42,509 nt of DNA from Spirochaetota bacterium (lineage in GTDB: Bacteria; Spirochaetota; Spirochaetia; Treponematales; UBA12059): positions 1 through 42,509 of the forward strand of contig JAKQKE010000137.1 in assembly GCA_029560805.1 (NCBI GenBank), read 5' to 3'. The notes beneath the pieces are model-generated. The model did no database searches, was not told the origin of the DNA, and was given only the letters and a program-made list of their open reading frames with translations. A program made the translations under genes and the position numbers. Of this stretch, positions 26,049 through 30,952 are shown piece after piece (position 1 is the first letter of the stretch; every line of letters starts with the position of its first letter).

Positions 26049-26822
26049 ATGCGATACTTTGACACTCATGCCCACATCGGGCTTATCTTCGATGATCCTA
26101 TCGAGCAGCTGCTCGCCTGCCAGCAGGCCAAGCAGTACGGCGTCCAGCGGATCGTCAGCATATGCAACAGCCTCATGGATTTCTTCCAGGTGTACGATAG
26201 CCTGAAGACGTCGGAGCACGTGTACCACGCCGCCGGCGTGTCGCCGTCCGAGGTCGCCTCGCCCGGCCGCGACTGGCGCGCCAAGCTCGATGAGGCCCTC
26301 AAGCTACCCCGCGTCATCGCCGTGGGCGAGATCGGCCTGGACTACTATCATCGCTACGGCGACAAGGATAGCCAGATCGAGCTGTTCATCGACCAGCTCG
26401 ATATAGCGGCCAAGCACGACCTGCCGGTCATCATTCATAACCGCGAGGCCGGCAAGGACGTGCTCGACGTGCTACGCGACCGCCTGCCCCCGGCTGGAGG
26501 CGTGCTCCACTGTTATTCCGAGAACGCCGAGTACGCGCTACGAGCCCTCGATCTGAACCTGTACTTCTCGTTCGCGGGCAACCTGACCTACCGGAACGCC
26601 AAGAACCTGCACGAGACCGTGCGCGCCCTGCCGCTCGACCGCATCCTGGTCGAGTCCGAGGCGCCGTTCATGGTGCCGGCCAAGTACCGCGGTAAGCGCA
26701 ACAAACCCGAGTACCTGCCCGCCACGGTCGACGACCTGGCCATGCTCCTCGACTTGCCGGTCGAGGATGTGGCCGAGGCGACCTACCAGAACGCCTGCAG
26801 GCTGTTCCGCGTGCCCGAATGA
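26049..26822 (+). CDS. tatD: TatD-family metal-dependent hydrolase / DNase
   Basis: 257 residues from ATG 26049; the open frame begins earlier, but those residues lie in the promoter and leader. The motif DTHAHIG (H7, H9) starts the amidohydrolase TIM barrel. Others are VGEIGLDYYHRYGD (Glu ligand), VIIHNREAGKDVLDVL, VLHCYSENAEYA, and ESEAPFMVP where most members read ETDxP. Members remove 3' nucleotides or repair DNA, and several are general phosphoesterases. A terminator follows. Confidence 0.92.
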   Translation: MRYFDTHAHIGLIFDDPIEQLLACQQAKQYGVQRIVSICNSLMDFFQVYDSLKTSEHVYHAAGVSPSEVASPGRDWRAKLDEALKLPRVIAVGEIGLDYYHRYGDKDSQIELFIDQLDIAAKHDLPVIIHNREAGKDVLDVLRDRLPPAGGVLHCYSENAEYALRALDLNLYFSFAGNLTYRNAKNLHETVRALPLDRILVESEAPFMVPAKYRGKRNKPEYLPATVDDLAMLLDLPVEDVAEATYQNACRLFRVPE

Positions 26823-26863
26823 TACCGTGGGCCGGCCGTACGCGCCGCGCCGCGACGATAGGA

Positions 26864-26892
26864 GGCGCCCCGTGGTACGGGCGCCTTTTTTT
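26864..26892 (+). terminator. Rho-independent terminator after tatD
   Basis: Stem GGCGCCC (26864-26870) with GGGCGCC (26879-26885), an 8-nt loop, and seven T (26886-26892). Confidence 0.93.
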
Positions 26893-26916
26893 AGCTACAT
26901 TCTTCCCGGAGACACC

Positions 26917-27912
26917 ATGAACCTGCACGTACCTGTCCGCGTCGGGTCGTATACGACGAGAGGCAACCTGTTCCTGGCCCCGGTGGCCGGATACTCCGAC
27001 GCGGCGTTCCGTTCGATCTGCGCTGACTTCGGTTGCGACCTGGCCTTTACCGAGATGGTCAGTTCCGAGGCCCTGACCCGCGGCCATCTCAAGACCGAGG
27101 TCCTGCTGGCGAGGGAGGACAACGAACCGGACTACGCCGTCCAGCTGTTCGGCTCGGGGCCTGAGACGATGGCGGCGGCCGCCCTCATCGTCGCCGAACG
27201 CTGGCGCCCGGCCGTGATCGACGTTAACTGCGGCTGCCCGGTGCCTAAGATAGTCAAGACGGGGGCCGGATCGGCCCTGATGCGCGACCCGTCGAGGATA
27301 CGGGCCATCGTCGCCGCGATGACCGGAGCGGTCAAGACGCCCGTGACCGTGAAGATTCGCCTGGGCTGGGACGACGCCAGTGTGAATTACCTCGAGGCGG
27401 CGACCGCGGCGGTCGAGGGCGGCGCGGCCGCTATCACCCTGCACGCGCGCACGAGGGAGCGCGGCTATGCCGGAACCGCCGACCGACAGGCGTTCCTCGC
27501 CCTGGCGGAGGCTCTGCCCGTGCCGGTGTTCGCCTCGGGGGACCTGTTCTCTGCCAAGGCGGCCGTGGACATCCTGTCGGGCGGTAGCGTGGCCGGCGTC
27601 ATGTTCGCCAGGGGAGCGATGGGTGACCCGTTCATTTTCTCGAGGGCCCGGGCAGCCTTGGAGGGCCTACCGGAGCCGATCGAGACGGCCGCCGGGCGCA
27701 TGTCGGTCGCGCGGCGCCACCTGGAGCTGTCTCTCCGCCATTATGGGGAGCGGACGGCCTGTGTCGAGTTCAGGAAACAGGCCTGCGCCTATCTCAAGGG
27801 AGTGCCAGGCGGCGCGGAGTTGCGTCGGCTGGCCGTCGGCTGCTCGACCCTGGCGGAGTACGACGGCTTCTTCGCCGCCTGGGCCGCTACGGCCGCGCGT
27901 GGCGATGCCTAA
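26917..27912 (+). CDS. dus: tRNA-dihydrouridine synthase
   Basis: 331 residues from ATG 26917 with CCGGAGA upstream. FMN-binding TIM barrel with LFLAPVAGYSDAAFRSIC at the start, the active-site VNCGCPVPKIVKTGAGSALM (C107), KIRLGWDD, and LHARTRERGYAG. It reduces uridine to dihydrouridine in tRNA D-loops using NADPH. Which of the DusA/B/C positions it modifies is not clear from sequence. Its end overlaps the opposing lipoprotein gene by 4 bp. TACATT at 26896-26901 could be a -10 element, but the terminator crowds it. Confidence 0.93.
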   Translation: MNLHVPVRVGSYTTRGNLFLAPVAGYSDAAFRSICADFGCDLAFTEMVSSEALTRGHLKTEVLLAREDNEPDYAVQLFGSGPETMAAAALIVAERWRPAVIDVNCGCPVPKIVKTGAGSALMRDPSRIRAIVAAMTGAVKTPVTVKIRLGWDDASVNYLEAATAAVEGGAAAITLHARTRERGYAGTADRQAFLALAEALPVPVFASGDLFSAKAAVDILSGGSVAGVMFARGAMGDPFIFSRARAALEGLPEPIETAAGRMSVARRHLELSLRHYGERTACVEFRKQACAYLKGVPGGAELRRLAVGCSTLAEYDGFFAAWAATAARGDA

Positions 27913-29793: not shown

Positions 29794-29822
29794 TTGACAT
29801 AATCGCGCGGTTTATTTACTAT
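29794..29822 (+). promoter_or_regulatory. Promoter of the serine tRNA cluster
   Basis: TTGACA 29794-29799, a 17-bp spacer, and TACTAT 29817-29822. A G/C-rich stretch follows before the tRNA at 29838, compatible with stringent control. Confidence 0.8.
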
Positions 29823-29837
29823 TCGGTGCCTTGAGTT

Positions 29838-29922
29838 GGAGCGGTGTCCGAGCGGTTTAAGGAGGCGGTCTTGAAAACCGTTGTGCCGTAAGGCACCGGG
29901 GGTTCGAATCCCCCCTGCTCCG
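29838..29922 (+). tRNA. tRNA-Ser (anticodon TGA)
   Basis: Acceptor GGAGCGG pairs with CTGCTCC, T-arm GGGGGTTCGAATCCCCC is perfect, a long variable arm is present and the anticodon loop CTTGAAA reads TGA. G is the discriminator base. CCA is not encoded. Confidence 0.95.
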
Positions 29923-30106
29923 TCGGACGCTAGCGAAGACGATCGCGTTTGAACGGGAACTTTGGTCATGGGGGATTCGAATCGGAGCCCCGCCGACCAG
30001 AGGGAGGAGGAGGCGCCACGATGGCGCCGCAAGGGGCGAAGGCGGGTTGTAACGAGGACACGAAGTCCGAGGAGAAAACCGAATCCCCCCTGCTCCGTCG
30101 GACGCT
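29905..30106 (+). repeat. tRNA-Ser-linked repeat element A
   Basis: Perfect 27-bp direct repeats at 29905-29931 and 30080-30106 (period 175 bp). They begin in the T-loop of tRNA-Ser(TGA) and run past its 3' end into its private flank. Between them is a 38-bp unique spacer and a 110-bp core (29970-30079) related to those of elements B and C. The core opens with GGGGGATTCGAATC, nearly the reverse complement of the tRNA T-arm, contains GGCGCC-ACGAT-GGCGCC, and ends next to the second tRNA 3' end, so the two ends can form a 10-bp closing stem. Confidence 0.9.
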
Positions 30107-30120
30107 TTCGGGCGCTAACT

Positions 30121-30208
30121 GGAGAGGTGCGAGAGTGGCCGAATCGGGCTCCCTGCTAAGGAGTTGTGCCTCTCAAGGGCACCGGGGGTTCGAATCCCCC
30201 CCTCTCCG
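30121..30208 (+). tRNA. tRNA-Ser (anticodon GCT)
   Basis: Acceptor GGAGAGG pairs with CCTCTCC, the anticodon loop CTGCTAA reads GCT, a long variable arm is present, and the T-arm is GGGGGTTCGAATCCCCC. Discriminator G; CCA not encoded. It begins 14 bp after element A. Confidence 0.95.
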
Positions 30209-30403
30209 TTGATGTAAGAAGAGGGCCTTTCTGGTCGCCGATAGTCGTTACGTTGGGGGATTCGAACCGAGTCCTCGCCGAGCGTAGCGAGGGAGAGGCG
30301 CTAGGATGGCGCCGAAAGAGGACGAGGCGGGTCGACGAAGCGCGTAGGATGCGCGCTAGGAGACCGAATCCCCCCCTCTCCGTTGATGTAAGAAGAGGGC
30401 CTT
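30191..30403 (+). repeat. tRNA-Ser-linked repeat element B
   Basis: Perfect 39-bp direct repeats at 30191-30229 and 30365-30403 (period 174 bp), again starting in the T-loop and extending about 21 bp past the tRNA. A 25-bp spacer precedes the 110-bp core (30255-30364). The core opens with GGGGGATTCGAACC, an exact 14-nt reverse complement of the tRNA T-arm. The hairpin GGCGCT-AGGAT-GGCGCC keeps pairing with a G-U change relative to element C. Confidence 0.9.
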
Positions 30404-30425
30404 ATAGGCTATCGGTCTTTAACAT

Positions 30426-30499
30426 GAGGTTATAGCTCAGCTGGATAGAGCGTCAGATTGCGGATCTGAAGGTCGGAGGTTCGAATCCTCTTAGCCTCA
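30426..30499 (+). tRNA. tRNA-Arg (anticodon GCG)
   Basis: Acceptor GAGGTTA pairs with TAGCCTC, anticodon stem TCAGA/TCTGA, loop TTGCGGA reading GCG for CGC codons. D-loop A20 and discriminator A73 are arginine identity elements. CCA not encoded. Most bacteria use ACG here. Confidence 0.9.
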
Positions 30500-30508
30500 C
30501 TAGTTTTT

Positions 30509-30595
30509 GGAGAGATGCGAGAGTGGTTGAATCGGGCGGTCTCGAAAACCGTTAAACCCGCGAGGGTTTCGGGGGTTCGAATCCCCCTCTCTCCG
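30509..30595 (+). tRNA. tRNA-Ser (anticodon CGA)
   Basis: Acceptor GGAGAGA pairs with TCTCTCC, the anticodon loop CTCGAAA reads CGA, and the variable arm is long (AAACCCGCGAGGGTTT). No repeat element follows it; a terminator does. Confidence 0.95.
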
Positions 30596-30599
30596 ATAT

Positions 30600-30624
30600 A
30601 CCGCCCTCGCAGGCGGTTTTTTTT
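30600..30624 (+). terminator. Rho-independent terminator after tRNA-Ser(CGA)
   Basis: Stem ACCGCC (30600-30605) with GGCGGT (30612-30617), 6-nt loop CTCGCA, then T through 30624 (eight T in all from 30617). Confidence 0.92.
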
Positions 30625-30661
30625 GGGCTTTCGTAATTAAGAACGGTTGTATGGTTTCTTT

Positions 30662-30747
30662 GGAGAGATGTCCGAGTGGTTTAAGGTCCACGCTTGGAAA
30701 GCGTGCGTGCTCACAAGGCACCGGGGGTTCGAATCCCCCTCTCTCCG
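30662..30747 (+). tRNA. tRNA-Ser (anticodon GGA)
   Basis: Acceptor GGAGAGA pairs with TCTCTCC, the anticodon loop TTGGAAA reads GGA, and a long variable arm is present. It follows a terminator, so it needs its own promoter; only weak candidates lie in 30625-30661. Confidence 0.95.
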
Positions 30748-30952
30748 TTGTAGATACCGGCCGCCGAGAGCGATTGGCTGCGACTGTTTCCTTTCCGTTG
30801 TGAGAGTGGGATTCGAACCGAGTCCCCGCCGAGCGGAGCGAGGAAAAGGCGCCAGGATGGCGCCGGAAGAGGGACGAGGCGGGTCGACGAAGCGCGTAGG
30901 ACGCGCGCGAGGAGACCGAATCCCCCTCTCTCCGTTGTAGATACCGGCCGCC
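30730..30952 (+). repeat. tRNA-Ser-linked repeat element C
   Basis: Perfect 36-bp direct repeats at 30730-30765 and 30917-30952 (period 187 bp). A 42-bp unique spacer precedes the 109-bp core (30808-30916), which opens GTGGGATTCGAACC (12 nt complementary to the T-arm). Internal pairing includes GGCGCC-AGGAT-GGCGCC and CGCG-TAGGA-CGCG. The CCCGCC near the start of the core can pair with the later GGCGGG. It is followed directly by SRP RNA. Confidence 0.9.

Follow-up and report, generated by a model that had tools for sequence, protein, structure and literature searches.

Three of the five tRNA genes clustered in a treponema-like spirochaete are each followed by a short structured element, and the three look like members of a family that has been overlooked so far and that copies its host when it inserts behind a tRNA or tmRNA gene. 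There is good support for the anatomy, the existence of a family and the copying of the ends from the host; the mode of insertion and a function in binding CsrA are hypotheses. Our best explanation as a whole, which we hold with slightly less than even confidence, is a family of insertions anchored at the T-loop and templated by the host, probably transcribed, with a core that, in spirochaetes, may be a decoy for CsrA.

Nested elements in a serine tRNA cluster

The window, that is, the whole 42,509-nt stretch of DNA analysed here, is contig JAKQKE010000137.1 (C215) of assembly GCA_029560805.1 from a Spirochaetota bacterium of the order Treponematales (genome G000). ARAGORN places in it the cluster Ser(TGA)-Ser(GCT)-Arg(GCG)-Ser(CGA)-Ser(GGA), as a first-pass annotation had it, followed by the SRP RNA gene and dnaX. 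Elements A, B and C lie, as that annotation also stated, behind Ser(TGA), Ser(GCT) and Ser(GGA), and share one layout: the host 3′ end (X, or X1), a flank (F), an inverted copy of the host end (x′), a core and a direct copy of the host end (X2), which may include the flank (F2). All features below are on the plus strand unless indicated otherwise.

Element A follows tRNA-Ser(TGA) (29837–29924). The exact 27-bp direct repeat that bounds it consists of the tRNA 3′ end from C56 onwards and 7–8 nt of flank; its first copy spans 29905–29931 and the second (X2 plus flank) 30080–30106. Between the two, x′, which repeats the host T-arm in inverted orientation (GGGGGATTCG), occupies 29970–29979 and the core 29980–30079, with hairpins H2 (30012–30028, loop ACGAT) and H3 (30056–30068, loop ACGAA), neither loop containing GGA. 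Element B, behind tRNA-Ser(GCT) (30120–30209), is bounded by an exact repeat of 39 bp (30191–30229 and 30365–30403), with x′ at 30255–30264 (again GGGGGATTCG) and the core at 30265–30364; both its H2 (30297–30313) and its H3 (30340–30356) have the CsrA-type loop AGGAT. Element C follows tRNA-Ser(GGA) (30661–30748) and has an exact repeat of 36 bp (30730–30765 and 30917–30952), an x′ that extends into the acceptor strand (30802–30815, GAGAGTGGGATTCG) and a core at 30816–30916, with CsrA-type loops in H2 (30848–30864, AGGAT) and H3 (30892–30908, AGGAC). In all three elements, x′ is as complementary to the real tRNA end as it is to X2.

The first-pass annotation had described repeats of 27, 39 and 36 bp that begin at one and the same T-loop base and enclose a related core of 109–110 bp. 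The common start, C56, holds, and all three repeats are exact; however, the 36 bp are only the perfect part of a Ser(GGA) repeat that fades out slowly over some 58 bp (84% identity, with similarity extending to about 30787), and the first 10 nt of the supposed core are the inverted copy of the host T-arm and not shared sequence. The cores proper can all be aligned, elements B and C are 92% identical over 130 nt, and a core-only model finds A, B and C with E-values from 1e-12 to 1e-16, far above chance. Neither tRNA-Ser(CGA) (30508–30596) nor the tRNA-Arg carries an element in the window, in agreement with the same annotation.

About 2 kb upstream of the cluster lies a gene for the tRNA dihydrouridine synthase DusB (26767–27912). 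Antisense to the tRNA-Ser genes, there are matches below the cut-off to RF04351 (Plastid-psbl-rps4 3UTR; 30156–30208 on the minus strand, the others being similar), a family that probably contains an antisense tRNA-Ser.

One core behind many tRNA and tmRNA genes

With element B as the query, matches were found in 31 of 59 relatives, many of them within the same five-tRNA cluster, presence and absence differing tRNA by tRNA. R1, a covariance model built from 25 cores after removal of the host-derived P1, matches in 117 of the 197 genomes of the order, hence in most treponema-like spirochaetes, and, at a stricter threshold, in 76 of 393 genomes sampled across the phylum. In G000 itself, it detects 10–12 places, i.e., A, B and C plus seven to nine further copies.

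A tRNA or tmRNA gene lies upstream, on the same strand, of 183 of the 199 classified R1 matches (inside and outside the window). The hosts comprise 16 amino-acid types (Ser, Met, Glu, Ala, Leu, Asn, Pro, Arg, Gln, Val, Thr, Gly, Asp, Trp, Lys and Cys) and tmRNA, the latter confirmed at four loci. The 16 matches without a recognised host are at contig edges, behind truncated or unrecognised tRNA/tmRNA ends (confirmed for L127), or unresolved; at a few, L110, L121, L279 and L292 among them, a tRNA/tmRNA-like 3′ end is present that no program names. The first-pass annotation had proposed such a scan of spirochaete genomes, and had considered that it would be refuted by hits occurring equally away from tRNAs or by repeats that were a plain tandem duplication lacking a shared core. 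The model of the core alone matches almost only behind tRNA and tmRNA genes, and neither refuting outcome was met. Its proposal of an insertion with duplication aimed at tRNA-Ser 3′ ends is borne out by the core shared behind tRNA/tmRNA genes and by empty sites within the genus, but not in its restriction to serine, since tmRNA and tRNAs for 16 amino acids serve as hosts. A chance origin, as well as an origin from tRNA-Ser only, is excluded by this isotype census.

The elements measure about 115–175 bp and have no coding capacity. The literature searched by topic, to the exclusion of supplementary tables and subscription papers, yielded no description of the family, and it is not mentioned in those parts of structured-RNA surveys that a key-word check reaches. 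Rfam searched at a low threshold returned only tRNA-derived or chance matches; no library family fits the elements, consistent with the earlier remark that the core was not a recognised one. Nested insertions of about 55–65 nt were observed inside the H2 loop at L009 (136–291; G002) and in G005 (L026; three loci); those of G005 are related to each other and reside in elements behind different Ser tRNAs.

The core is structured

An enclosing helix, a small tandem-GA hairpin and the hairpins H2 and H3 make up the core. Among 142 distinct copies, 94.3% of the pair cells are standard, both partners have changed in 21 of the 22 pairs, and covariation scores 0.638, versus 0.147 (sd 0.006) for shuffled and at most 0.117 for slid controls. 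These figures lean in favour of the model because the alignment was fitted to it; in an unfitted MAFFT alignment, 19 of 22 pairs have double changes. G-U pairs are rare (1.4% overall and 2.6% in the same loci, as compared to 7.9% at variable SRP RNA pairs of these loci), which is odd for an RNA and leaves open folding at the DNA level or the copying of hairpin arms. Tandem G-A/A-G mismatches recur inside three helices (the P2, H1 and H3 columns of alignment A4) and are also seen in E. coli RtT.

Both ends are copied from the host

The repeat starts mostly at −18/−19 from the tRNA end (C56), and its far end varies, lying anywhere between the tRNA end and a point over 100 nt past it. With both sides of P1 taken from their own locus, the complementarity score is 9; with the sides swapped between isotypes, it is 3. 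We compared the tRNA (X1), X2 and the reverse complement of x′ at nine T-arm positions in 132 loci. All three agree in 1110 cases; x′ alone has drifted in 52; in 23 cases X2 has drifted and x′ still matches the tRNA, while x′ matches X2 but not the tRNA in only three, all of them at L129, a locus with a shifted boundary. Where there is disagreement, x′ thus follows the tRNA (23 versus 3), which argues that the match to the host was copied in and did not co-evolve: a helix kept by selection would often show an x′ equal to X2 and different from the tRNA, and the scarcity of such cases speaks against it. A looser first version of this comparison, which included misaligned sites, pointed in the same direction. 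P1 as a co-evolving RNA helix is ruled out by the three-way comparison.

CsrA-type loops and predicted transcription

The high-affinity binding site of RsmE is an ANGGAX hexaloop directly on its stem, AGGAX still being bound (PMC4005645), and the repeats of CsrB read CAGGA(U/A/C)G (PMC7652899). In the elements, GGA occurs in some 91% of H2 and 67% of H3 loops, mainly as A(N)GGAN: most H2 loops read ANGGAN or AGGAN, and H3 reads AGGAN in some two thirds of the copies and ACGAN in roughly a quarter. Both loops carry GGA in 125 of 195 copies, including elements B and C. Stem-loop sites of the form A(N)GGAN number 1.22 in spirochaete copies versus 0.007 in shuffled cores, and none was found in the 15 copies from Coriobacteriia, Clostridia and candidate phyla. 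The elements resemble the CsrA-sequestering RNAs of the CsrB/RsmZ type in having A(N)GGAN loops directly on the stem, more than one site per RNA and a cognate csrA in G000; they differ in having only two sites per unit, in being attached to tRNA genes and in the lack of binding data.

G000 has a csrA gene, and so, in a wider test confined to 80 genomes, do all 13 of the element-bearing genomes outside the order. Elements in family f4 occur in none of 17 csrA-less genomes and in all nine csrA-bearing ones (p = 3e-7), and the association by genus across the order has p = 0.04. The association in f4 may reflect a single evolutionary event, and the overall association rests largely on f4. In this family, csrA has apparently been lost as a group in genera g17, g20, g23, g29, g43 and g46. 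Several genomes carry elements without csrA (G091, G005, G108), a minority of the element-bearing genomes, and GGA loops are rarer in csrA-less genomes (18/28 versus 180/218, p = 0.04). CsrA cannot explain the layout, because this also occurs with unrelated cores devoid of GGA loops (Coriobacteriia, Clostridia, candidate-phylum bacteria (CPR) and E. coli).

A sigma-70-like promoter upstream of the tRNA cluster (29794–29822, TTGACA-17-TACTAT; 10 of 12 matches, 0.3 expected in shuffles) and a predicted intrinsic terminator (30600–30624) enclose elements A and B in one predicted unit, from which we infer that both are probably transcribed together with the tRNAs. Transcription is not assured everywhere, because a terminator-like hairpin lies between the tRNA and the element in 36 of 113 first units, where read-through or another promoter would thus be needed. 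The core of spirochaetes and Desulfobacterota would form a folded RNA with two hairpins, the loops of which match the CsrA site, and, where transcribed with the tRNA, could serve as a CsrA decoy tied to tRNA synthesis. Binding of CsrA is an inference without binding data, and we advance it only tentatively, as rather more likely to fail than to hold. If true, candidate CsrA-sequestering RNAs are physically coupled to tRNA transcription in spirochaetes and Desulfobacterota, and CsrA activity could therefore follow growth rate.

Empty sites, inferred spread and the proposed route of insertion

Empty sites in related strains, which the first-pass annotation had suggested looking for, exist within the genus: in G003, Ser(TGA) is without an element, and 70 bp at its 3′ end are identical to what follows core A in the window. 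Occupation is reversed at Ser(CGA), which is occupied in G003 and empty in the window. At Ser(TGA), insertion and exact loss by recombination between the repeats yield the same sequence and, without a tree, the direction is unresolved. Close cores are found on different isotypes in one genome (Ala/Pro, 8.8% apart, in G150; Leu/Met, 13%, in G031; Arg/Thr, 14%, in G037); we therefore infer that cores move from gene to gene, each end being remade to match the new host.

Several X1-F-x′ stretches fold back into almost perfect hairpins (e.g., L112 and L128), and a core-less version exists behind Ser(GGA) in G018 (L011/L317), which reads X-F-GGGGGATTCGAATCCCCC, x′ being fused directly to X2 in a palindrome. 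These observations favour template switching at the T-loop. A strand would snap back onto the host 3′ end, making x′, would cross to the donor core at the T-loop sequence common to both, and would then return to the host T-loop to copy X and F again. The host 3′ end would thereby be copied twice, once inverted (x′) and once directly, often with its flank (X2+F2), with a donor core of about 100 nt placed between the copies and the real tRNA left intact. No such event has been seen, and core-less palindromes are not frequent intermediates, only one tRNA-linked case having turned up in 197 genomes; template switching is therefore inferred, and we consider its chances appreciable but short of even. 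If our explanation as a whole is right, tRNA genes carry a short passenger that is re-templated on each host, a mode of spread undescribed among the element types compared here.

The main rival to template switching is recombination of folded DNA as in integrons. In integron attC arrays, the repeat junction lies inside an inverted-repeat site around a structured middle, and cassettes stand in tandem. The elements share these traits, and one could imagine that x′-core-X folds as single-stranded DNA and that a tyrosine recombinase joins an X-F-x′-core circle into the T-loop. The resulting order, X-F-x′-core followed by X-F-x′-core, resembles a cassette array; tandem arrays do occur, the junction is fixed at C56, the stems are Watson-Crick only, and some insertions have a foreign F, the inequality of F and F2 at the G003 Ser(CGA) locus even fitting better than with template switching. 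We nevertheless consider this improbable: x′ and X2 follow each host, so that there is no fixed recombinase site, the integrase-specific boxes RYYYAAC and GTTRRRY are lacking and the flanking boxes follow the host T-arm, while the flank is often duplicated with variable ends. Retro-insertion in the manner of a SINE, by target-primed reverse transcription at the T-loop, is scarcely credible. The fixed 3′ junction and the variable repeat end do resemble target-primed target-site duplications, but only 24 of 99 genomes have a reverse transcriptase (PF00078), and there is none in G000 or in the element-rich G034, G003 and G014. A Y1 transposase is present in 52 of the 99 and absent from the element-carrying G003, G004, G005, G016 and G031; Y1 transposition is rejected, its gene missing from element-rich genomes, and neither enzyme is required. 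Thus, the elements are short, non-coding, palindromic and multicopy like REP/REPIN sequences (RAYT, Y1), but they always lie behind tRNA or tmRNA genes, and many genomes that bear them lack the transposase. Integrative elements and satellites in tRNA genes likewise reconstitute the 3′ end of the tRNA, with a direct repeat left behind; the nested elements differ from these in that about 150 nt leave no room to encode an integrase, in that the repeat often enters the locus-specific flank and in that the host end is also copied in inverted orientation.

Plain tandem duplication by slippage or unequal crossing-over, the core being a pre-existing trailer sequence, would suit tandem units that are nearly identical and repeats that sometimes continue through x′ into the core. 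As an origin it is largely refuted, and we give it very little weight, for it explains neither why homologous cores stand behind tmRNA and 16 types of tRNA nor why x′ is inverted and host-specific; it probably accounts for the growth of arrays only. Alternatively, the elements could be functional RNAs in the first place, inherited vertically and processed from tRNA transcripts as CsrA decoys or RtT-like trailers, the copy of the tRNA 3′ end serving folding or processing and not mobility. Strong covariation in the core, loops conserved over variable stems, an orientation always on the strand of the tRNA and the operon position of elements A and B are what one would expect of such RNAs. Yet P1 shows essentially no compensatory change, G-U pairs are scarce, the same tRNA is occupied in one genome and not in another of its genus, and a terminator precedes about a third of the elements, so that we regard this reading as unlikely, albeit not negligible, beside host-templated insertion.

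The layout is wider than the core

The first-pass annotation had likened the elements to the E. coli tyrT operon, without recognising the core. The core differs: the covariance model of RtT (RF00391, cut-off 45 bits) has no match in the elements, its best score in the genome being 20.6 bits at an unrelated place, and R1 has none in the E. coli tyrT locus. RtT is, however, closer than had been supposed. In tyrT, the 178-bp repeats likewise stand in tandem immediately behind a tRNA and open with a duplicate of its 3′ end; by eye, they too contain an inverted T-arm copy (GGGGAAGGAT pairing with ATCCTTCCCC), as well as a tandem-GA hairpin (CUC-GA-GC..GC-GA-GAG) and a second hairpin. RtT differs in having no A(N)GGAN loop, and the elements of treponema-like spirochaetes occupy many tRNA types and tmRNA. 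By layout the elements belong with RtT; by the Rfam model they are not members of its family.

A DNA pattern scan over one genome per species, asking only for a T-arm and its reverse complement 80–110 nt apart, gave at least about 140 matches, at least 111 of which lie no more than 120 nt downstream of a tRNA or tmRNA gene. Desulfuromonadales, Geobacteraceae, Clostridia, Coriobacteriia and CPR are represented among the matches listed. Among these same listed matches, R1 recognises most cores of Desulfobacterota (E down to 8e-11) and none of those of Clostridia and Coriobacteriia. Since R1 does not detect the latter or RtT, and the layout is common to all, the layout is wider than the core. The elements could then represent a widespread bacterial class without an enzyme of its own, which targets any gene with a T-arm, rewrites both its ends by copying the host T-arm in both orientations and carries structured cargoes that differ from lineage to lineage (CsrA decoys in the case of spirochaetes and Desulfobacterota, hairpins of other kinds in Clostridia and Coriobacteriia), RtT being one isolated member; we put this forward as a conjecture that has a real chance of being right, though the smaller one. 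If it is true, the unexplained tyrT/RtT repeats of E. coli are one case of a broad class and not the curiosity of one operon.

In Coriobacteriia, the order rc(T-arm)-hairpins-T-arm is seen behind tRNAs at L141, L143, L148, L149, L192 and L206, with unrelated cores and no GGA loops; the same layout, likewise with unrelated cores lacking GGA loops, occurs behind tRNAs in Clostridia and further taxa (L161, L166, L180, L212, L218 and others). Unrelated cores of this type include long perfect hairpins, such as GGCACATGCC-AGT-GGCATGTGCC.
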